A DNA stretch of 64,000 nt from Acidobacteriaceae bacterium (GTDB lineage Bacteria > Acidobacteriota > Terriglobia > Terriglobales > Acidobacteriaceae), in the NCBI GenBank assembly GCA_003131585.1, contig PKVW01000051.1:10506-74505 (forward strand). The letters run 5' to 3'. Positions 20,015 to 32,467 of the stretch are shown one piece after another (within the stretch, counting starts at the first letter, position 1; each line of letters starts with the position of its first letter). The position numbers were made by a program, and so were the translations under genes. The notes below the pieces were generated by a model. The model had not been told where the DNA came from and searched no databases. It worked only from the letters and a program-made list of their open reading frames with translations.

Positions 20015-20407
20015 ATGCCCGTAGGCCAAGAAGAACACGTCTTCGTGCGTTCGCGGACGGTTGTTTCCCGGGTCGTTGCCGGGGAAACCCTTATCGTGCC
20101 GGTGCGAGGCAAGGTTGGAGATCTGGCGTCGATCTACAGTTTCAACGGAACCGGCTCTTTGATTTGGCATTTGTTGGACACGGCCCGAGCGCGCGCGGAG
20201 TTGATTGGAGCGGTGGAGCGGGAATACGAGGTAGGGCAAGAGCAGGCGCAGAAAGATGTCGCGCAATTTCTGGAGGAGATGCTCGCGGTGGGACTGGTCG
20301 AGGTCTGCCCGAGAGGGGCGATCATTGCGACAGAGAGGACTGCGACAGAGATGACGGCGACGGTGTCAAAGCAGCAAGTGGAACTGGAGACGGCAGGCTG
20401 GCGTTGA
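20015..20407 (+). CDS. PqqD-like peptide recognition (RRE) protein
   Basis: MPVGQEEHVFVRSRTVVSRVVAGETLIVPVRGKVGDLASIYSFNGTGSLIWHLLDTARARAELIGAVEREY...; SD-like ggag upstream of ATG 20015; ORF track starts at 19982. Confidence 0.85.
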   Translation: MPVGQEEHVFVRSRTVVSRVVAGETLIVPVRGKVGDLASIYSFNGTGSLIWHLLDTARARAELIGAVEREYEVGQEQAQKDVAQFLEEMLAVGLVEVCPRGAIIATERTATEMTATVSKQQVELETAGWR

Positions 20408-20445
20408 TCGCGGTCACGCCGCAGCCGGCCAGATCAGAGGAATAA

Positions 20446-21705
20446 TTGGATCAACTAAGCTACGGAGCGTTCAGCGCAGATCTGCACCAGCGGCAAGCCG
20501 GTGAGCGGATGCCGTTGCAGGTTTCCATTGAAGTGACGCGGCGCTGTCCTCTGGAATGCCAGCATTGCTACAACAACCTGCCCATGGGCGACCAGGACGC
20601 CCGCAACCGCGAAATGACTACCGAGGAACACTTCCGCATGCTCGACGAGTTGGTCGAGATGGGCTGCTTCTGGCTGCTCTATACCGGCGGCGAGATTTTC
20701 GCCCGCAAGGATTTTCTCGAGATTTACACCTACGCCAAGAAGAAAGGGTTTCTGATTACCCTCTTCACCAACGGCACGCTCATCACAGAAAAAATCGCCG
20801 ACTACCTGGTGGAGTGGCCGCCCTTCGCCATCGAGATCACCCTGTACGGGCGAACTAAAGAGACGTATGAAGAGTTGACGCAGATATCCGGCTCCTACGA
20901 GAGATGCCTGCGCGGAATCAAGTTGCTGCGCGAGCGGGGTTTGCCGCTCAAGCTGAAGACCGTCGCTACCAGCATCAACAAGCATGAAATCTCCGCCATG
21001 AGGCGTTTTGCCGAAGACGAGTTGGGCGTTGAATTCAAGATGGACGGCCTGATCAATCCAAGGATTGACTGCTCGCAGAGCCCGCTGGCGGTCCGGCTTA
21101 CGCCGGAGGAAGTGGTCGCGCTCGATATGAATGCGCCGAAAGGTGTGAGTGAGTACCGCAGGTTGGCGAAGCACGACCTTGAGAATCCACCCAATTTGTC
21201 GCACAACGACACTGTGTACTTCTGTGGCGGAGGGATGAGTACCTTTGCCATTAATGCCTATGGAGAAATGGGCATCTGTGTGATCTCGCAGCAGGAGACA
21301 TTCGATATACGGCACTCCGGCCTCAAGCCAGCATGGGAACACTCTCTTTACGACTTGCGAAAGCGCAAGCGTACGCGCGTGACGAAGTGCATCGAATGCC
21401 GGATTCAATCGCTCTGCGGAATGTGCCCGGCCAACGGTGAAATGGAGAATGGCGACCGCGAAAGTCCGGTTGCGTTTCTCTGTCATGTCGCACATCTGCG
21501 GGCAGCGGCGATCGGAGTTGAGGTTCCTGCGCATGGGGAATGCGAATTCTGTGCCGGTGGAAGTGAACACGACGCGTTGATGGAGTCGGCGCGTCGCATC
21601 GCGAACAAGGAAATCGACGTGGAAAGTTGGACGGGGCCTCAGCAAGTATTTCAGATTCTGAACAATGCGAGCGTTTCCGGGGGCTGCGGAAGTTGCGGCC
21701 ATTGA
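20446..21705 (+). CDS. Radical SAM/SPASM peptide maturase
   Basis: 419 aa; RRCPLECQHCYN (CX3CX2C), LYTGGEIFARKD, C-terminal Cys cluster CIECRIQSLCGMCPAN...LCHVAHLR; adjacent to PqqD-like gene. Confidence 0.93.
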   Translation: MDQLSYGAFSADLHQRQAGERMPLQVSIEVTRRCPLECQHCYNNLPMGDQDARNREMTTEEHFRMLDELVEMGCFWLLYTGGEIFARKDFLEIYTYAKKKGFLITLFTNGTLITEKIADYLVEWPPFAIEITLYGRTKETYEELTQISGSYERCLRGIKLLRERGLPLKLKTVATSINKHEISAMRRFAEDELGVEFKMDGLINPRIDCSQSPLAVRLTPEEVVALDMNAPKGVSEYRRLAKHDLENPPNLSHNDTVYFCGGGMSTFAINAYGEMGICVISQQETFDIRHSGLKPAWEHSLYDLRKRKRTRVTKCIECRIQSLCGMCPANGEMENGDRESPVAFLCHVAHLRAAAIGVEVPAHGECEFCAGGSEHDALMESARRIANKEIDVESWTGPQQVFQILNNASVSGGCGSCGH

Positions 21706-21725
21706 TGGCAACGACTGGAGGCTGA

Positions 21726-21905
21726 ATGAACTACGACAACCAAGCGGACAGTAAGAAACCGTACGAGCCGCCGCAGCTTACGACGATCAGCCTGCGCCCG
21801 GAGGAAGCGGTCTTGGGGCACTGCAAGATATCCGGTGCGGCTGGCTCCTTTAGCGGCTCCTCATGCACTGCGCTGGGCGCGCCCTGCAACAGTCTAGGGT
21901 CATAG
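21726..21905 (+). CDS. Candidate RiPP precursor peptide (59 aa), absent from the supplied ORF track
   Basis: Direct translation: MNYDNQADSKKPYEPPQLTTISLRPEEAVLGHCKISGAAGSFSGSSCTALGAPCNSLGS*; 20 bp after the maturase stop; acidic/Leu leader and Cys/Ser/Gly-rich C-terminus. Confidence 0.8.
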   Translation: MNYDNQADSKKPYEPPQLTTISLRPEEAVLGHCKISGAAGSFSGSSCTALGAPCNSLGS

Positions 21906-21946
21906 GCGGTGACGGAACTCGGGGACGGATCGAAGACGCTTCAGCT

Positions 21947-22873
21947 ATGACACTACCCGTGAGGTTCGATGAGTCGGACGCTGCATTGTCCAGTAGATTT
22001 CGCGTCGGAGGAGTGTCGGTGAAAGTTGTGGGCGTATCGAGTTTCGATACCGCGTTGGTTGCTTCCTTGGAGCCATTTCGAATCGAAACGGGCGCCCCCG
22101 ACATTGATCTGCGCGTCGAGTGGACAGGAAGCCTTTGTCCGGCTCCGGGGCGTGAGCTTTTCGACTCTGGTGCCAGTTGGCGGTTGTTTGAGAACGCCGC
22201 AGGATTTCAGTTCGACTTCAACGACACGATGTTCGGCGGACGACCTTACAAGAGACTGCTAGTAGACAGCGGTTTTTGCCGGGCGACCCTTCAGATGAGC
22301 GAACAGTTCTTCGCGGGTTTTCCGCTCGAACCCGCCCCCCTGTGCTACCCCCTCGACGAACTCCTGATCATGCACCGCCTCACGCAAGAGCGGGCGATCG
22401 AGCTGCACGGGGTCGGCATCGTGGGGCCCGACGGCGCCAGCAACTTGTTTGTCGGCCATTCTGGAGCAGGGAAGAGCACAACGGCGCGTCTGTGGGCCTC
22501 GCTCCACGAGGTAGAGATTCTGAGCGACGATCGCATCATTGTTCGTGAAGATAAGGTGCGCGAGGATGCGACCGAAATCTTCATGTACGGAACACCGTGG
22601 CATGGCGAAGCCGCTTTCGCTTTGCCGCAGAGCGCTCCGCTGCAGCGAATCTTCGTTCTGGAACATGGGCATGGCAACGTGCTGACGCGGCTGACCAGGA
22701 GCCAGATGGTCGCGGAGTTGTTTGCCCGCAGCTTTGTGCCGTTTCACAGCCACGAGTATGTGGACTCCGCGTTGAGCTTTCTGGAGCGAGTTGCGGATTC
22801 AGTCCCTTGCTATCTCTACTCTTTCGAGCCGGACGAACGCGCCGTGGAGAGGATACTCAAATTCCGTGACTGA
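21947..22873 (+). CDS. HPr kinase/phosphorylase-like ATPase
   Basis: Walker A VGHSGAGKSTTARLWA, downstream LSDDRIIVRED; preceding IELHGVGIVGPDGASNLF; start chosen after the precursor stop (ORF track starts 21863). Confidence 0.82.
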   Translation: MTLPVRFDESDAALSSRFRVGGVSVKVVGVSSFDTALVASLEPFRIETGAPDIDLRVEWTGSLCPAPGRELFDSGASWRLFENAAGFQFDFNDTMFGGRPYKRLLVDSGFCRATLQMSEQFFAGFPLEPAPLCYPLDELLIMHRLTQERAIELHGVGIVGPDGASNLFVGHSGAGKSTTARLWASLHEVEILSDDRIIVREDKVREDATEIFMYGTPWHGEAAFALPQSAPLQRIFVLEHGHGNVLTRLTRSQMVAELFARSFVPFHSHEYVDSALSFLERVADSVPCYLYSFEPDERAVERILKFRD

Positions 22874-25800
22874 TTGTACGAGTGCTGACTGTGCGAAGAC
22901 CGATTGTGCGAAGACCGATTGTGCGAAGGAAGACCGTCCGCATTCCGCGCAGTTCGAATCCTTCAGCCTGGAATGCCTGCAGGCCGGACTCCGGGTCCGC
23001 TTTCAAGCGCGCGGCGCCAGTATGTCTCCCGCCATTCGCGATGGAGAAATAGTTTATGTGAAACCCGCTTCTGGGGCAGCCTTGCGCAGAGGAGACATTG
23101 TTCTGGTCAAGGGTGATCGCGGATTCCGCCTGCACCGCCTGGTCCGAGCGGATGGTTGCCGGGACTTGTTCATCACGCGCGGGGACTGCGGAATGGAAGA
23201 CGACCCTGCGGTGCGGAGCGAACAGATTCTTGGCGTTGCCATAGCCAAAGAAGTGCGAGTTGGAAGAAGGGTCGTTCGCGCGAAGTTCCGAGGAATGGGC
23301 GGCCGATTTCTGCGAGGCGTGGCGCGGGCGCAGGTTGTTCTCAAGACTCTTCGAGGGATGGCCGGCGGCGTCTTGCCGGTGCGGGCGATTTCACACGCCG
23401 CAGTGCGCGACCGCGTGCGCTCCTCGCTTGCATTGCTGGGTCTACTGGCCATGCTTCTGGTCACGCCGTATTCCCGCGGGCAGGTGGCCATAGACTCCAC
23501 GAGTTCGAAGGCGAACGAGCGCACCGGCGCAGGCACTGTTACCGTTAACTTCAACCATACGACGACCGCGGCCGCGAACAGGTTGCTGCTGGTCGGCGTT
23601 TCGATGAACATCACGAACGCACCTACGACCGGGGTTTTGGGTGTGACGTACAACGGAACTGCTCTTAGTTTCGTGGGCGCCCACAACGATGCCGGGAATA
23701 CCCGCCGGGTAGAGATGTGGTATTTGCTAAATCCTGTCAATGGTACGAATGCAATTGTAGTGTCCGTAAATATTCCGGTCGCGCAAACCGTGGGCATTGT
23801 TGCGGGCGCTACGACGTTTACAGGGGTTGACCAAACCGTGCCACTGGGACCGTTCGTGGCCGCCGATGGTGCCAACGGCGCTAACTCGCAACTCGATGTG
23901 CCCAGCGTGGTCAACGGAATGGTGATCGATACGCTGGCCACTGGGGGCGATCAGGTCATCGCTATTCCCGGTCCACAGGCTTTGCAGTGGAGCGCGAGAA
24001 CTGGGTTTGCAGTTCCTCCCGATGTCCACGGGACGGGCAGCACGCGTGCGGGCGCTCCGAGCATTCCAATTTCAGAGATTTTCAATGGTACCTCCAACTG
24101 GTCGCTAGGAGCGGTGTCAATTAATCCGAGCGCGGCCGATATCGGAGTAACCACGAGCGTCGCCAGCGCGGTTTTTCTGGGGCAGAACACTGTCTACAAC
24201 ATTACCGTCACCAACAATGGGCCTTCGCCGGCCAACAACGTGGTTCTAACCGACACGTGGGCAGCCCCGGGATTGACACTGGTGTCGGCAAATCCGAGCG
24301 CGGGAACGACCTGCGTAGGCACGGCCCCAATCACTTGCACGCTCCCGACTCCGTTGAACAGCGGAGCGACCGCGACTGTCGCGGTCACGGTTACGGCCAG
24401 TGCCGCGGGGTCGTATGCCAACACCGCGGCCGTGACCGATTCCGGAACGCCCCCTGATCCGAACACGGGCAACAATTCCTACACCGCGGTGGCGACAGTG
24501 CAGGCGATTGCTTGCGCGGCCGTTTCACAGGCCACGGCTGGAAACAATCTGACGGGTATCTTAAACACCTACTATGCGGGAGCGGCGAGCGTGCTCCCGG
24601 GCGCGACTTCCATCACCGTGAAGGCAGGCACCGGTGGTCCCGGGGGAGCTCCGACGCCGATTGTGGCAGGGAACCTTCTGCTGGTGATCCAGATGCAGGA
24701 TGCCAGCATTAATGACTCGAACAACGTTGCTTACGGCAACGGCAGCACGGGCCAAGGGTTCACCGCGCTGAACAGCGCGGGAGATTACGAGTTTGTTACG
24801 GCAACCGGAGCAGTGGGTGTAGGTGGTGGCTCGCTTTCGATTTCCGGAGCCGGTTCGGGCGGGGGATTGGTTTTTGCCTATCACTCCGCTGCAGCCTCCG
24901 CCACGGCGGGACAGAGCACCTATCAGGTGATTGTGGTGCCGCAGTACACCACCGCGTCGTTCAATTCGATCACGCCACCGACGGCGCTCGCCTGGAACGG
25001 CTCCACGGGTGGAGTGCTCGCCTTGGATACTTCGAGCACGTTGACTCTTAACGGCGCAACCGTGTCGGTAAGCGGCCCAGGTTTCCGCGGCGGCGCGGGC
25101 CTGCAACTGGGGGGCGGAGGCGGCAGCAACACTGATTTTCTCCAAACCGCTCCGGCTACCTACACGCCGGCGGGGAACCCTCCGCCTCCCCCGGTGCAAG
25201 CCGGCGACGATGCGCCGAAGGGAGAAGGAATCGCAGGCACGCCGTTCTGGATCGAATCCGGCGGGACCTTCCTGAGCTCAGGCAGCAGTTATCCGAGCGG
25301 CGTGGCTGGAACGGATGGCAGCATGGGGCGCGGAGCTCCGGGCAACGCAGGCGGCGGCGGCACCGACGGCGATCCCGCGGCCAACGATCAGAATGCGGGC
25401 GGCGGTGGTGGGGGTAACGGGGGCAATGGAGGCTTCGGCGGCGACTCCTGGAGTTCAAACCTCAGCGTAGGCGGCGAGGGTGGAGCGGCCTTTCCCGCCA
25501 CCGTGAATCGAATCGCGCTGGGCGGCGGTGGCGGCGCAGGCACTCGCAATAACTCCAACGGTGACACTCAGGCCAGCGGCGGAGCGGCGGGCGGCGGCAT
25601 CATCGTCATTCGCGCCAATGCGCTCAGCGGCACGGCCACCCTCACCGCCAACGGTGTTTCGGCGTACAACGGTACGGCCAACGATGCGGGCGGCGGCGGC
25701 GGAGCCGGCGGAAGCATCGTTGTCCTTTCGGCAAACGGCGGCGAAGGCGGCCTGACGCTGCAAGCTAACGGCGGAAATGGCGGCAACGCGTGGCAATCTC

Positions 25801-28800
25801 AAGCCTACAGTCTGGCGAATCGCCACGGTCCTGGCGGTGGCGGTGGCGGCGGCGTCGTGCTCGTTTCCGGAGCACCGGCCAGCATCGGCGTCAGCGGCGG
25901 CGCGAGTGGAACTACGTTGAACCCCGGCGTGACCTATGGAGCGACGGCGGGCACCACCGGCGCCAGCGTGACAAACGCGTCCATCTCGCAGACTTCGGGC
26001 ACGCAGTCCGGCGCGCAATGCACTCCCGACGTAACACTGGGCAAGAGCCATGTGGGGAATTTCACTCGCGGCTCGACCGCCAGCTATACCGTTCCAGTTT
26101 CCAACTTGAGCCCGTATGGTTCTACGAACGGCACGGTGACCGTCAACGATACTTTGCCGGTAGGGCTGACTCCGACGAGCGCCAGCGGCGCCGGATGGGC
26201 GTGCTCGATTGCGTCCCAGACTGTGAGTTGCGTCGATTCGACTGTCCTGGCGGCGAGTAGCAGCTATCCGTCGATCACCATCAGCGCCAATGTGGCTTCT
26301 ACCGCTCCCTCCACCGTAACCAATACCGCAGTGGTGAGCGGCGGAGGCGAGATCAACCTCGCGAACGACACCGCCACCGATGTGGCCAGCGTCGTCTCCA
26401 CCGCCGATTTGAGCATTACCAATATGGCAACGCCGAACCCGGTCGCTGCCGGCAGCAATATCACTTACACGCAGATCGTTACGAATAGCGGGCCGAGTGC
26501 GGCCGACAATGCCACTTTGGTGGAAGCCGTTCCGGCCAACACTACGTTCGTGTCCATCGCGGCCCCGGCGGGCTGGAGTTGTGTCACGCCGGGTGGCGGC
26601 GGCACAGGCAACGTGGTGTGTACTAACCTGGGCATGGCCGGAAGTACCGCGGCTACCTTCTCGCTGATAGTAAAGGTCAATGGGGCCACTGCGAACGGCA
26701 CCGTGATCGCGGATACTGCCACGGTGAGTTCATCCGTTATTGATCCAAATTTGAGCAACAACACCGCCGCCACGGCAACGGTCGTCGGGACCACCGCTGG
26801 GGCGGAGCTGACCGTGACCAACTCTGTCTCACCGAATCCGGTTGTGATCGGCAATAACGTCACCTACACGCAGGTGGTCAGCAATACAGGAACGGCGGCG
26901 GCAACGAGCGCGACGCTCAACGAAGCTCCCACCGGGAGTACGACTTTTGTGTCGATCACGCCCCCGCCGGGCTGGAATTGCGCCGCTTTCCCGCCCCAGT
27001 GTACGAACCCAAGCGTGGCCGCGGGAGCCACAGGAACGTTCACCGTCGTTTACAAAGTTAACGCGGGCCCCTCTGTCAGCGACACGGCCACAGTGAATGC
27101 GGGGAACCAGGCTTTCGGCCCCAACTCCGCCACGGCAACGGATGTGGTGACCACCGCAGGCCAGGCTGACCTTGGCCTGAGTACTGCAGGCACGCCCCTT
27201 TCGGTGTTTGCAGGCAATGACATCACCTATACGGAGACGGTGACGAATAGCGGCCCTTCGGCAGCCTCCGCAGTCAGCTTCACCGAGTCGATTCCCAACA
27301 CAACCATCGTTTCCGCCTCCGCCCCGGCCGGCTGGTCCTGCACGATTACTACTACAGTGACCTGCACTGACCCGAGCGTGGCCTCGGGCGCTTCGGTCGA
27401 CATCATCGTCGTGGTGAACGTAGCATCCACCGCGATCGTCCCATCGATAACGGCGACCTCTGCGGTTTCGGCAGCCAACTCCGCCACCAGCAGCAATAAC
27501 TTGGTGACGCCAGTCAGCGCTGCCTGCGACCTCGTCGTGACCAACCTAGGCAGCCCCACTCCGGTTCTCGCGGGCGGCACGATCACCTACACCCAGGTCG
27601 TCACCAACACCGGTCCCAGCAATTGCGGCACGGCGACCTTCACCGAAGCTACGCCGTTAAACACGACATTTGTGTCGGTGTCAGTGGTGACCGCCGGGGG
27701 TGGGGCTTGGGCTTGTCCGAACACCGCGCCCATAGCCTGCACCAACCCAAGCGTTTCTCCGGCGTCGACGGGAACCATCACGGCTGTATACAAGGTGCCC
27801 TTGGGGACGGCGGCAGGCACGATCATTACCGACATCGCAACCGTTGCCACCACGACTCGCGATACCAACAAGAACAACAACTCCGTCACGGTTACGATTG
27901 CGGTGGCGGGAGCCACGCAAGCCGACCTGAGCGTCACCAACACAGGAAGTCCGAATCCGGTGAACGCCGGGCAGAACATCACTTACTCGCAGACTGTAAC
28001 CAATGGCGGGCCCGCCGCGGCGAGCGTCGTCATCCTGACGGAAACGGTTCCCTTGAATACATCTGCTCAGTCGCTGACCGGTCCAGCGGGCTGGACTTGC
28101 ACGGTTGGAACGCTCACCTGCACCATCGCCAGCCTGCCCCCCAACACCACCGCGAACTTCACTTTCGTGCTGAAGGTGAACGCGATCGCAGGTTTAGGTT
28201 CGACCATTGCCCAAACCGCCTCAGTCGCCTCCACCACCATCGATCCGAATCTCGGCAACAACAGCGCGACGGCCAACGTTCAGGTAGCGGACTCGGCTGA
28301 CTTATCGGTTACGAACTTAGCCGTTCCTGTGCCCGTGCTGGTCAGCAACAACATTGCCTATACCCAATTGATGACCAACGCCGGGCCGAGTACAGCAACG
28401 AACGCCAGTTTCACCGAGAACACGCCGCCCAACACGACGTTCGTGTCCCTGATTCCGATCCCTGTTGGATGGTCTTGCACCCTTCCGGCGGCGGGCAGCG
28501 CAGGCACGATCACCTGCACCAATCCCAGCTTCGCGGCTGGAATAGCCGCCTTCCCCGTGATCGTGAAGGTCACGGCGGGTACGGCTGCTGGAACGGCAAT
28601 CAACGACCTAGTCACAGTAGGTTCGTCGACCACCGATCCAAACCTGGCCAACAATACCGCGACCGCGGCGGACGTAGTGGCTTTAGCGACGCAGGCCGAT
28701 CTAATAGCGGCTAACTTGGTCTCCCCGGCATCTGTGGCGCCGGGAAGCAACCTAACCTACACCCAAAGCGTCACGAATCTGGGACCGGTCGCAGCTACCT

Positions 28801-31800
28801 CCCCAGTGACTTTCACGCAAACGACTCCGCCGAACACCAACTTCCAATCGATGGCTTTCCCCCCAGGTTGGACCTGCGTCACGCCTGCTGCTGGAGCGGC
28901 TGGCACGATCACCTGCACGGATGGGAGCACTCTAGGTCTGAATATCCCAGCGATCTTCACTTTAGTGCTGCAAGTGATTCCGGGCACCCCGTCGGGAACG
29001 AATATCGCAGATACCGTCACCTCCAGCGCCGGCAACATAGTGCCGAACCTTACCACCAACAGCGCCACGGCCTCGGCCTTCGTGGCTGACCCCAACAGCG
29101 CCGATATGGCCATCGTGAAGACCGCCGCTCCGAGTCCCACCGTGGCGGAAGGCGATCCCCTTACCTATACTCTGACGGTGACGAACGACGGGCCGGCGTC
29201 GGCGACCAACGTGATCGTGACCGATCCCTTGCCCTCCGCGGTGACCTATCTGTCGGCAACTTCGACAGCCGGTACGTGCTCGGAAGCCGGCGGCACCGTC
29301 ACCTGTCAGCTGGGGACCATGGCCAACGCGGCCACGGCCACGGTCACGATTGTTACGCTTGCGGCAGCCCCGGGCATGGCTTCGAATACTGCCACCGTAA
29401 GCGCCGATCAGACCGATCCCAATCAGGCCAACAACACTTCCACGCAGACCGAAACCATCACCTCTGCGACCAAGATTCGGTTGCAGGCCTTCGCCGCTCA
29501 AATGGGCAAGGACCCAACCGGTGCCAGCCGGGTGCTGCTGTTCTGGAAGACGGGGGGGGAAGCGCACAATCTCGGATTCAACGTTTACCGCGAACAGAAT
29601 GGCGAGCGTGTCCGGTTGAACCCTTCTTTGATTGCGGGCTCGGCCCTGCTGATGAGTGGAGCGCTGCCCAAGCATTCCGGCAAGACCTACGCCTGGATCG
29701 ATTCGTCCACAGGCTCCGGCGCTGGTGCTTACTGGCTCGAGGATGTGGATGTCAACGGCACTCGCGCTCTGCACGGGCCGGTGACGGCCGAAGCCGCCAC
29801 CAGTTTGCAGGCGGGTCCTGAAACGCTGCCCACGGCGGCCTTAATGTTGAACCAGCTTAACCAGGCGCTGCCTGCGGCAGCTTTCAACGAGGGGAGCCAT
29901 CCAGTCGAGAACGTATTGCAGGAGTTTGAGTCCACATCGACCCAAAGGCAGAAGCAATTCGAGCTGGCGGCTCATCCCGCGGTGAAGATCTTCGTGAAGC
30001 ACGAAGGCTGGCATCGGGTAACGCAGCCGGAACTGATCAAGGCTGGACTCGACCCGAATGTGGATCCGGCCCTCCTCCATCTCTATGCGGAAGCGGTGGA
30101 GCAGCCGATCGAGATCGCCGGCGCATCGGCCGGGCCCGGAGGTTTCGGACCCCAGGCCGCGCTCCAGTTCTACGGGACGGGAATCGACACGCAGTATTCC
30201 GGCACGAGAGTGTACTGGCTGGTTGCCGGTGAAGCGCCAGGCCAGCGGATTCACCGCTTGCAGCCCTCCACCGGCTCGAACCAGCCTCCGGCGAGCTTCC
30301 CCTTTACAGCGGAAATAACCCCTCATACGACCTACTTCGCCGCGCTGATTACGTCGAACGGAAACAATTTCTTCGGGCCGCTGGTCTCTTCCACGCTCGT
30401 AGATCAGACCGTGCGTGTTCCGCATCTCGACAAAAGCTCGACGAACCCGGCGAGGCTGGAAATCATTTTGCAAGGCGTGATCCTGGGTGTCCCGCACGAC
30501 GTCACGATCGCTCTGAACGGATCTCCGCTCGGCGCCTTGACCTTCACCGGTCAAGACAAAGGCAGATTCCACGCGAATTTGCCGCCCGGCGTCTTGCAAG
30601 AAGGAGACAACACCGTCACGCTCACGGCCCAAGGCGGGGAATACGATACCAGCTTGGTGCAGTCTATCCGGATCACGTATCCCCACTCCTACATGGCGGA
30701 CTCCGACGGGCTGAAGTTTACAGGCCGGGCCGGGGACGAGCTTAAGGTCGCCGGTTTCACCAGTGCTCCGGTGATTGTGCTGGATATCACGAACCCGGCT
30801 CAGCCAGTAGAACTCACTCCCCAGATCTCATCGGATAAGATCGCGTCGGATACTACTTCAAACCCAGCCCAGTATGCACTGGAAATGCAGGTGCCGTGGT
30901 CAACCACCAATCCAGCGTCCACCGCCAGGCATACGCTGCTGGCCCTGGCGGCCGGCCGGATTGCCTCCTCGTCCGGGATTCGCCAGAATCACCCGTCCCA
31001 CTGGCACCGCGCCCAGCCCGGCATCGAAATCGTCATGGTTTCGCATGAGGCCTTCGCCGACGCTCTGAGTCCTCTGGTTCGCGCCCATGAGGCGGAAGGC
31101 AAATCGGCGGCCGTGGTGTCGATCGACGACCTCTACGACGAGTTTAGTTTTGGCGAGCATAATCCCACCGCGATCCGGGATTTTCTGCGCACAGCCAGCA
31201 AGGTCTGGCGCACGGCGCCGCGTTATTTATTGCTTAACGGCAGGGCGTCGATTGATCCGCGAAATTATCTCGGCTTCGGTCATCTGGATTTCGTGCCGAC
31301 GAAGATTGTGCCTACCACCAGCCTGATGACAGCCTCCGACGACTGGTTCTCGGACTTCAGCGATAGTGGTCTGCCCACCATCGCTACCGGGCGTCTCCCT
31401 GTGAGCACGGTCGACGAAGCCAGGTTAGTGGCCGGCAAGGTGTCCGCATATGAGGGCCAGTCCACGAACGGCGCCTGGACCTCCCAGGCTCTGATGGTCG
31501 CTGATGTGAACGACACCGAGAACTTTACCCAGGACAGCGAGCTCGTGCAGGCGCAATTGCCCGCCGCGCTGCAGGTGACGGACGTCTTCGCCAGTACGAT
31601 GAGCATTGCGGCAGCCCAGCAGGAAATCCTTGCAGCCATCAACTCAGGACAATTGTTGGTGAATTATGCGGGACACGGCTCCGAAGACCAATGGTCAGGC
31701 GACAATCTTTTCAACAGCACGGTCGCGAACTCATTGACCAACGCCTCGTCCTTGCCGGTGTTTCTCATCATGAACTGCCTGAATGGTTTGTTCCAGGACG

Positions 31801-32075
31801 TTTACGAACAACCGCTGGCCGTTACGCTAATGCTCGCTCCCAACGGGGGCGCGGTCGCGGTCCTGGCTTCCAGCGGGCTAAATCAGGCGGCGCCTCAGAC
31901 AACTCTCGACGAGCTGATCGTGCAGAGTGCCCTGAACCCGCCGTACCTGGCTCTGGGAGACGCGATTCTCAAGGCCAAGTCCGGCATCACCGACCTCGGC
32001 GTGCGCAAAACCTATAACCTGCTTGGCGATCCCGCGATGCAGATCAAGCCTCCAGGCAAGAATCCGTCGCACTAA
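22866..32075 (+). CDS. Giant fused protein: S26-type signal peptidase domain + TM + Gly-rich region + ~10 DUF11 repeats + C25 (gingipain-like) peptidase domain
   Basis: S26 motifs ARGASMSPAIRDGE, FRLHRLV, TRGDCGMEDD; TM SSLALLGLLAMLLVTPY; repeated ADLSVTN...NPV...NITYTQ.VTN.GPS; C-terminal NYAGHGSEDQW and VFLIMNCLNGLF; GTG 22866 overlaps HPrK-like stop (GTGACTGA). Confidence 0.88.
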   Translation: MTDCTSADCAKTDCAKTDCAKEDRPHSAQFESFSLECLQAGLRVRFQARGASMSPAIRDGEIVYVKPASGAALRRGDIVLVKGDRGFRLHRLVRADGCRDLFITRGDCGMEDDPAVRSEQILGVAIAKEVRVGRRVVRAKFRGMGGRFLRGVARAQVVLKTLRGMAGGVLPVRAISHAAVRDRVRSSLALLGLLAMLLVTPYSRGQVAIDSTSSKANERTGAGTVTVNFNHTTTAAANRLLLVGVSMNITNAPTTGVLGVTYNGTALSFVGAHNDAGNTRRVEMWYLLNPVNGTNAIVVSVNIPVAQTVGIVAGATTFTGVDQTVPLGPFVAADGANGANSQLDVPSVVNGMVIDTLATGGDQVIAIPGPQALQWSARTGFAVPPDVHGTGSTRAGAPSIPISEIFNGTSNWSLGAVSINPSAADIGVTTSVASAVFLGQNTVYNITVTNNGPSPANNVVLTDTWAAPGLTLVSANPSAGTTCVGTAPITCTLPTPLNSGATATVAVTVTASAAGSYANTAAVTDSGTPPDPNTGNNSYTAVATVQAIACAAVSQATAGNNLTGILNTYYAGAASVLPGATSITVKAGTGGPGGAPTPIVAGNLLLVIQMQDASINDSNNVAYGNGSTGQGFTALNSAGDYEFVTATGAVGVGGGSLSISGAGSGGGLVFAYHSAAASATAGQSTYQVIVVPQYTTASFNSITPPTALAWNGSTGGVLALDTSSTLTLNGATVSVSGPGFRGGAGLQLGGGGGSNTDFLQTAPATYTPAGNPPPPPVQAGDDAPKGEGIAGTPFWIESGGTFLSSGSSYPSGVAGTDGSMGRGAPGNAGGGGTDGDPAANDQNAGGGGGGNGGNGGFGGDSWSSNLSVGGEGGAAFPATVNRIALGGGGGAGTRNNSNGDTQASGGAAGGGIIVIRANALSGTATLTANGVSAYNGTANDAGGGGGAGGSIVVLSANGGEGGLTLQANGGNGGNAWQSQAYSLANRHGPGGGGGGGVVLVSGAPASIGVSGGASGTTLNPGVTYGATAGTTGASVTNASISQTSGTQSGAQCTPDVTLGKSHVGNFTRGSTASYTVPVSNLSPYGSTNGTVTVNDTLPVGLTPTSASGAGWACSIASQTVSCVDSTVLAASSSYPSITISANVASTAPSTVTNTAVVSGGGEINLANDTATDVASVVSTADLSITNMATPNPVAAGSNITYTQIVTNSGPSAADNATLVEAVPANTTFVSIAAPAGWSCVTPGGGGTGNVVCTNLGMAGSTAATFSLIVKVNGATANGTVIADTATVSSSVIDPNLSNNTAATATVVGTTAGAELTVTNSVSPNPVVIGNNVTYTQVVSNTGTAAATSATLNEAPTGSTTFVSITPPPGWNCAAFPPQCTNPSVAAGATGTFTVVYKVNAGPSVSDTATVNAGNQAFGPNSATATDVVTTAGQADLGLSTAGTPLSVFAGNDITYTETVTNSGPSAASAVSFTESIPNTTIVSASAPAGWSCTITTTVTCTDPSVASGASVDIIVVVNVASTAIVPSITATSAVSAANSATSSNNLVTPVSAACDLVVTNLGSPTPVLAGGTITYTQVVTNTGPSNCGTATFTEATPLNTTFVSVSVVTAGGGAWACPNTAPIACTNPSVSPASTGTITAVYKVPLGTAAGTIITDIATVATTTRDTNKNNNSVTVTIAVAGATQADLSVTNTGSPNPVNAGQNITYSQTVTNGGPAAASVVILTETVPLNTSAQSLTGPAGWTCTVGTLTCTIASLPPNTTANFTFVLKVNAIAGLGSTIAQTASVASTTIDPNLGNNSATANVQVADSADLSVTNLAVPVPVLVSNNIAYTQLMTNAGPSTATNASFTENTPPNTTFVSLIPIPVGWSCTLPAAGSAGTITCTNPSFAAGIAAFPVIVKVTAGTAAGTAINDLVTVGSSTTDPNLANNTATAADVVALATQADLIAANLVSPASVAPGSNLTYTQSVTNLGPVAATSPVTFTQTTPPNTNFQSMAFPPGWTCVTPAAGAAGTITCTDGSTLGLNIPAIFTLVLQVIPGTPSGTNIADTVTSSAGNIVPNLTTNSATASAFVADPNSADMAIVKTAAPSPTVAEGDPLTYTLTVTNDGPASATNVIVTDPLPSAVTYLSATSTAGTCSEAGGTVTCQLGTMANAATATVTIVTLAAAPGMASNTATVSADQTDPNQANNTSTQTETITSATKIRLQAFAAQMGKDPTGASRVLLFWKTGGEAHNLGFNVYREQNGERVRLNPSLIAGSALLMSGALPKHSGKTYAWIDSSTGSGAGAYWLEDVDVNGTRALHGPVTAEAATSLQAGPETLPTAALMLNQLNQALPAAAFNEGSHPVENVLQEFESTSTQRQKQFELAAHPAVKIFVKHEGWHRVTQPELIKAGLDPNVDPALLHLYAEAVEQPIEIAGASAGPGGFGPQAALQFYGTGIDTQYSGTRVYWLVAGEAPGQRIHRLQPSTGSNQPPASFPFTAEITPHTTYFAALITSNGNNFFGPLVSSTLVDQTVRVPHLDKSSTNPARLEIILQGVILGVPHDVTIALNGSPLGALTFTGQDKGRFHANLPPGVLQEGDNTVTLTAQGGEYDTSLVQSIRITYPHSYMADSDGLKFTGRAGDELKVAGFTSAPVIVLDITNPAQPVELTPQISSDKIASDTTSNPAQYALEMQVPWSTTNPASTARHTLLALAAGRIASSSGIRQNHPSHWHRAQPGIEIVMVSHEAFADALSPLVRAHEAEGKSAAVVSIDDLYDEFSFGEHNPTAIRDFLRTASKVWRTAPRYLLLNGRASIDPRNYLGFGHLDFVPTKIVPTTSLMTASDDWFSDFSDSGLPTIATGRLPVSTVDEARLVAGKVSAYEGQSTNGAWTSQALMVADVNDTENFTQDSELVQAQLPAALQVTDVFASTMSIAAAQQEILAAINSGQLLVNYAGHGSEDQWSGDNLFNSTVANSLTNASSLPVFLIMNCLNGLFQDVYEQPLAVTLMLAPNGGAVAVLASSGLNQAAPQTTLDELIVQSALNPPYLALGDAILKAKSGITDLGVRKTYNLLGDPAMQIKPPGKNPSH

Positions 32076-32103: not shown

Positions 32104-32172
32104 CTTTGGCTGAAACCTTACTGGAATTGAAGCGAAAATTCCGAACCGCGGCGCCTGTGCCACCCGATCCCG

Positions 32173-32337
32173 CTACTGTATCGAACTGGCTGTATTGGAG
32201 AACACGCTATTCGCGTTGGATCCAATCAGGCGTATCGTGCCCACCACCAGAACCAGGATCACAGCCAGCATTACCGCGTATTCGGCGATATCTTGCCCCG
32301 CATCTTCCGCCCAAATCCTGCGAATAAGTTCGGACAT
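32173..32337 (-). CDS. Flp/Fap-type pilin
   Basis: MSELIRRIWAEDAGQDIAEYAVMLAVILVLVVGTIRLIGSNANSVFSNTASSIQ; class IVb pilin pattern with SD gaggaggg. Confidence 0.88.
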   Translation of the reverse strand: MSELIRRIWAEDAGQDIAEYAVMLAVILVLVVGTIRLIGSNANSVFSNTASSIQ

Positions 32338-32467
32338 GCCCTCCTCCAATCCGCACATCTGTTCCCTGTGAGAGGGAACAACTGCAATCGACGCACCATA
32401 ATGAGGCACGGTGCGGTGCTTGTCAAATGCGATGCTTGGGGTGAGCCGAACGCTTTGTCGCGGCCTG

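Follow-up and report, generated by a model that had tools for sequence, protein, structure and literature searches.

The locus raises the question of whether five adjacent genes, encoding a PqqD-like protein, a radical SAM (rSAM)/SPASM enzyme, a 59-aa Cys-containing peptide, an HprK-like kinase and a giant S26-DUF11-C25 protein, form one RiPP-type system, and of what the giant protein does in it. The genes occupy positions 20015-32075 on the plus strand of the window, i.e. the whole 64,000-nucleotide stretch analyzed. The source genome is that of a soil Acidobacteriota (3.9-Mb assembly, 96% complete); among named genomes, those of Candidatus Sulfotelmatobacter and of other Acidobacteriota MAGs come closest to it. 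Open reading frame calls and Pfam searches bore out the original prediction of five consecutive same-strand genes with tight spacing and a final overlap, the gaps being, in order, 38, 20, about 41 and -8 bases. The PqqD gene starts at ATG 20015, preceded by GGAG, and further in-frame starts lie upstream. For the HprK-like gene the longest frame begins at 21863, inside the peptide gene, and the alternative ATG at 21947 is the likelier start because homologues start past the peptide stop. The giant gene starts at a GTG (22866) that overlaps the end of the HprK-like gene (..CGTGACTGA..) and ends at 32075; its longest frame, from TTG 22791, is 3094 aa. Of the domains predicted, PqqD, Radical_SAM, S24/S26, DUF11 and C25 were all matched by Pfam, whereas SPASM and HprK matched weakly and were supported instead by a sequence pattern and an AlphaFold2 (AF2) fold, respectively. 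Promoter and terminator sites were no more frequent in the window than in shuffles. Just 3' of the cassette, on the minus strand (32160-32340), lies a small frame that by eye resembles a Flp-type pilin.

We scanned species genomes once, obtained 33 loci, and then matched every window protein to them. The order PqqD-rSAM-peptide-HprK-S26-C25 was kept wherever the contig was long enough, with few exceptions: locus L052 has S26 and no C25, locus L055 has neither HprK nor S26 and carries two C25 genes, and at L092 HprK and S26 were not found. The two C25 proteins of L055 (11660-21251) stand in tandem, in a record labelled Actinomycetota that is possibly a misnamed bin. A precursor profile (A1, 29 sequences) run on 396 genomes sampled across the phylum matched 49 of them at E<=0.01, the weakest matches being near noise. 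In forty neighbourhoods that were fetched, the rSAM gene adjoined the peptide gene in most and the whole set was present in many. Five of the six window genes that flank the cassette went unmatched around it in all fetched loci, and the sixth, a protein-kinase gene, gave scattered paralogue-like matches; two of the flanking genes occur widely in the genus, located elsewhere in sister genomes. Since the flanking genes are not conserved beside it, the cassette is bounded by PqqD and C25, and it occupies different places in different genomes. Thus, the neighbourhood comparison, which could have told against the original prediction had the genes not travelled together, found them conserved together: the cassette is not a chance neighbourhood, and it recurs across Acidobacteriota. 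One genome holds a second rSAM copy (L056; G023:C26:41786-42502), which ends at a contig edge (239/419 residues matched).

The precursor gene (21726-21905, plus strand) was assigned from the homologue alignment, profile matches and motif counts. In its product, a leader containing YEPPQL and LRPEEAVLG is followed by (H)CK and by a core of ~25 aa, which has two further Cys and a C-terminal Gly-Ser. Its conservation in 29 homologues rules out a chance reading frame, and their alignment gives the consensus KKPYEPPxLxTISLRPEEAVLGHCK, followed by the core. The motif [Y/W]xxPx(hydrophobic) was present in 72/72 precursors, and the last residue was Ser in 70 and Thr in 2 of these 72, with a Gly-Ser end in 52. 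The core is variable, 21-29 aa long in nearly all loci and usually endowed with two more Cys (exactly two after CK in 61/71 precursors). Discrete lasso-type RREs recognize the YxxPx leader motif (PMC13381572), and a C-terminal Ser is the site phosphorylated by the HprK-like kinases of paeninodin-type lasso peptides (PMC9266682). NCBIfam holds no named family for the precursors. A short precursor with a conserved leader and a variable core, encoded beside maturation enzymes, is what marks a RiPP cluster; together with the conserved gene set, it strongly supports the RiPP-type reading originally proposed.

The PqqD-like protein (20015-20407, plus strand), a candidate discrete RiPP recognition element (RRE), precedes the rSAM gene in most loci and matched Pfam PF05402 at 1.1e-15. 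Its best NCBIfam models were lasso-peptide PqqD chaperones (6.4e-9, below cutoff), in agreement with the lasso-type RRE motif in the precursors. The predicted maturase (20446-21705, plus strand, TTG start) matched Radical_SAM PF04055 at 1.5e-20, with its CxxxCxxC at CPLECQHC. Pfam SPASM itself was weak (0.098), but the pattern C-x12-G-x4-C ... CxxC-x5-CxxC ... C can be read in the sequence, so that the rSAM motif and the auxiliary-cluster Cys of sactipeptide and ranthipeptide enzymes are both present. PDB matches were to PqqE, the best relative, and to SkfB; identity within the genus was 76-88%. No RiPP enzyme of the cassette scored above a curated NCBIfam cutoff. In the window's lineage, a Gly/Cys tail closes most of the rSAM proteins (GGCGSCGH; window 21660-21705).

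For the HprK-like kinase (21947-22873, plus strand), Pfam HprK matched weakly, and we relied on a structure model because a sequence-only PDB search returned mostly ABC P-loops. The AF2 model (pLDDT 95) has the PEPCK/HPr-kinase fold, and Foldseek matched it to PEPCK (2e-7) and to the HPr kinases 1knx (9e-6) and 1kkl (5e-5). In the kinase profile (A2), H137, K159 and D177 are invariant and D178 nearly so, and a P-loop and GTPWHGE are present; this set corresponds to the His-Lys-Asp-Asp motif reported for lasso kinases (PMC9266682). Its predicted target is the peptide's C-terminal Ser, which it would phosphorylate.

The giant protein begins with an S26/SEC11-type serine peptidase domain (22866-23260, plus strand) that matched Pfam S24/S26 PF00717 at 24.8 bits (cutoff 23.3). 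Its profile found human SEC11C (4.5e-11) and SEC11A as best matches, with LexA/UmuD weaker. The triad Ser52/His90/Asp107 (numbered from GTG 22866) is invariant in 31 homologues and consists of the residue types that LppS requires (Ser, His and Asp), LppS having been demonstrated by experiment to be the RRE-dependent leader peptidase of LPPs (PMC13381572). The domain is predicted to be a cytoplasmic leader peptidase. Behind it, at approximately 23405-23489 (plus strand), an internal signal peptide consists of a charged stretch and then RSSLALLGLLAMLLVTPYSRG, with QVAIDS following the putative cleavage site. All 33 fused forms scanned have a hydrophobic segment after S26, and in 29/33 a [small]-x-[A/G]-Q site comes next. 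Because a signal peptide with an (A/G)|Q site lies between S26 and the secreted part, S26 should stay cytoplasmic while the C25 part should be cleaved off and exported. Distant lineages encode S26 on its own, as a soluble protein. The suggestion that leader-peptidase and surface-protease functions are supplied in one polypeptide was therefore not upheld, given this signal peptide and the separate S26 proteins; the two parts probably work apart, and their fusion is lineage-specific. A frameshift or assembly artefact behind the fusion was ruled out, as the frame is open in many independent genomes and standalone S26 occurs elsewhere.

A further fusion was observed at L112 (7822-9219), where a signal-peptide-like segment connects S26 with a Wza-like protein (Poly_export/SLBB) and a Wzz-like gene lies alongside. 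The same fusion is found in L105, L106, L108, L111, L113 and L116; together with L112 these are seven genomes of family f27, with no C25 near the cassette. The f27 fusion is an independent joining of S26 to an envelope protein, and we infer that a cytoplasmic leader peptidase has been placed ahead of, and in frame with, two distinct envelope proteins that are exported.

The exported part of the giant protein comprises a stalk (23490-29465, plus strand), made of a Gly-rich/AgmC-like segment (NCBIfam AgmC N-terminal, 2.3e-27) and ten DUF11 repeats (Pfam DUF11, 2.4e-139, 10 stretches), and a C25 cysteine peptidase with beta-rich N-terminal domains (29469-32075, plus strand; Pfam PF01364, 7.5e-78). 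The catalytic His and Cys are 100% conserved. A PDB profile search with the C25 part favored PorU (6za2, 5.9e-46) over gingipain R (6.1e-33), and Foldseek aligned the AF2 model (pLDDT 82) to PorU at 1.3e-27 over 822 columns, compared to ~370 columns for gingipain. As judged from this model, PorU is the closest structure to the C25 protease. PorU, the type IX secretion (T9SS) sortase, cuts off a C-terminal domain (CTD) and attaches A-LPS in Porphyromonas (PMC8545088). The cassette protease shares its C25 His/Cys and beta-rich N-terminal domains, but has a DUF11 stalk and lacks the CTD of PorU, the chain ending 1-41 residues after C25. Without a CTD it is not counted among the T9SS sortases, and likeness to PorU alone does not prove transpeptidation. 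A search for the T9SS protein SprA gave no match in the source genome, and no control genome matched either.

We also compared the occurrence of C25 with that of the cassette. Within the genus, 17 genomes had both rSAM and C25, 2 rSAM only, 1 C25 only and 17 neither (Fisher p=1.9e-7); the two rSAM-only cases (G020, G024) are both on short contigs, and the C25-only genome is 82% complete. Each genus genome with C25 has one copy. In distant cassette genomes C25 lay <=13 kb from the peptide gene in 15/20, against 0.2 expected, a proximity whose P value is not literal because the 20 genomes are related. The gene stands downstream or directly upstream of the cassette and is fused in the window's own lineage. 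The distances of rSAM and C25 correlate at r=0.90, a figure that takes no account of shared descent and that co-inheritance explains. No C25 lies close to the f27 loci, the f55 loci or L052, so that C25 is not obligatory.

Altogether, comparison at the sequence level shows a conserved set of a precursor with a lasso-type RRE-binding leader motif, a discrete RRE, an rSAM/SPASM enzyme, an HprK-fold kinase with the lasso-kinase catalytic residues and a peptidase domain with a SEC11/SipW-type triad, with a PorU-like C25 inherited alongside. We consider it probable that these genes form a cassette for RiPP maturation that has a partner in the envelope: RRE, rSAM, kinase and S26 would act on one peptide, and a PorU-like C25 would be exported to act on it or on its target. 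The PqqD protein would bind the YxxPxL leader and present the precursor. The rSAM/SPASM enzyme would modify the Cys-containing core, most likely by thioether cross-links. The kinase would (poly)phosphorylate the C-terminal Ser, and S26 would cut the leader away inside the cytoplasm, perhaps between V-L-G and (H)CK; this site is a guess, and in distant precursors the residue proposed for -1 is not small in every case. In the window's lineage S26 is encoded upstream of, and in frame with, the C25 signal peptide, and export would separate the two. Beyond the inner membrane, the DUF11-C25 protein may act on the exported peptide or on its target, either as the protease of the last processing step or, if PorU is a guide, as a transpeptidase attaching something. 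The cassette has no dedicated exporter, and only a minority of loci have an MsbA-like ABC gene nearby. More tentatively, and with a rather low likelihood, the PorU-like protein could be a sortase that joins a mature, rSAM-cross-linked phospho-RiPP to an envelope glycan or surface protein. If so, RiPP chemistry would be building a cell-surface structure, and the S26 fusions to the C25 protein and to the Wza-like exporter would mark the peptide's destination.

Other readings place the giant protein differently. C25 could be a passenger, linked to the cassette by descent in Acidobacteriota and not working with the peptide; cassettes without it (f27, f55, L052) and a distance correlation obtainable from vertical descent alone are consistent with this. 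However, C25 is nearly all-or-none with rSAM in one genus though the cassette's location differs, and it is linked in some ten family-level groups, in three arrangements and in two deep rSAM clades, so that we regard mere co-descent as improbable. Even less credit is due to the S26-DUF11-C25 protein as one bifunctional surface enzyme with S26 acting outside the cell. A single uninterrupted frame in most loci of the lineage suggests it, but S26 lies before the signal peptide with none of its own, its stand-alone homologues are devoid of a hydrophobic segment, and the [small]-x-[A/G]-Q site follows the hydrophobic core in all but four of the 33 fusions.

The fate of the peptide could also differ. 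An ordinary secreted antimicrobial of sactipeptide or ranthipeptide kind, with C25 as an accessory for immunity, activation on export or simple release, would account for the variable Cys-containing core, the SPASM rSAM enzyme and the patchy presence within the genus. We think this unlikely, since the core's C-terminus is nearly invariant, clustering of the neighbourhoods revealed no consistent exporter or immunity gene, and the combination of kinase and S26 agrees with the LPP/paeninodin group, the roles of which are called unknown (PMC13381572). Conversion of the peptide into a redox cofactor like PQQ or mycofactocin is invoked by PqqD with a SPASM rSAM enzyme and by PqqE as its best PDB relative. 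Such a product would derive from a conserved core, whereas the core here varies in sequence and length, and the clustering gave no linked dehydrogenase family. Kinase and S26, moreover, are not known as parts of the PQQ or mycofactocin pathways, and a cofactor is highly unlikely.

The preferred reading, a phosphorylated RiPP with an envelope partner, overlaps in part with known systems. Sactipeptide and ranthipeptide systems (SkfB, PapB type) share the SPASM rSAM enzyme, presumably acting on a Cys-containing core, but the cassette adds kinase, S26 and C25, and no NCBIfam model for either class scored above cutoff. The SynChlorMet, GeoRSP and HPr-rel-A cassettes of NCBIfam share PqqD plus rSAM/SPASM and/or an HprK-related kinase, all far below curated cutoffs. 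Paeninodin-type lasso peptides (PadeK/ThcoK; PMC9266682) share the His-Lys-Asp-Asp HprK-like kinase, the C-terminal Ser and the lasso-type RRE with its leader motif. For the lasso B2 transglutaminase-like leader peptidase, no PF13471 was found in the source genome, and between the cassette genes there is no macrolactam cyclase gene, with rSAM standing there instead.

The closest parallel in logic is provided by the LPP peptides of Bacillota, for which RRE, HprK kinase and an archaeal-type signal-peptidase leader protease were published in 2026 (PMC13381572), part of this logic having been published for paeninodin lasso peptides (PMC9266682). The novelty claimed for the system thus stands for the rSAM/SPASM enzyme and the PorU-like C25 partner, and not for the RRE/HprK/S26 logic. 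The open-access literature searched contained no description of the cassette and nothing specific on the precursor motif or on C25/DUF11 with RiPPs. With the lpp cluster of Paenibacillus alginolyticus the cassette shares a discrete lasso-type RRE with the YxxPx leader, an HprK-like kinase and a leader peptidase that resembles archaeal-type signal peptidases and has Ser-His-Asp. LPP clusters are found within capsule loci (PMC13381572), and in the f27 cassettes S26 is joined to a Wza-like exporter. The full LPP leader motif, YxxPxVLxHQxIxFETxxS (PMC13381572), is absent, the cassette leader being YxxPxLxxIxLRPEEAVLGxCK, and the conserved LPP Ser is core residue 3 whereas that of the cassette is C-terminal. 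Unlike LPP, the cassette has a radical SAM/SPASM enzyme, conserved core Cys and a linked PorU-like C25. As it lacks two LPP features, the full leader motif and the NTase plus MsbA set, and the lasso B2 peptidase as well, we classify it as a phosphorylated RRE-dependent RiPP variant with rSAM chemistry, neither LPP nor lasso.

The biological role of HprK-phosphorylated RiPPs, both paeninodins and LPPs, is stated to be unknown (PMC13381572). The cassette is predicted to make a small modified, probably phosphorylated peptide, and would link this enigmatic class to the cell envelope: the kinase/RRE/S26 logic appears in another phylum with radical SAM chemistry, tied to a specific exported PorU-like protease, and a second lineage ties it to a polysaccharide exporter, which makes an envelope role directly testable. 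The NTP transferase and MsbA-like transporter of LPP are absent from the window cassette, NTase-like and ABC genes lying near some relatives only. A relative of the putative NTase-like protein of L115, recalling the LPP NTP transferase, is found near the cassette at L106, L108, L110-L112, L115, L116 and L118.
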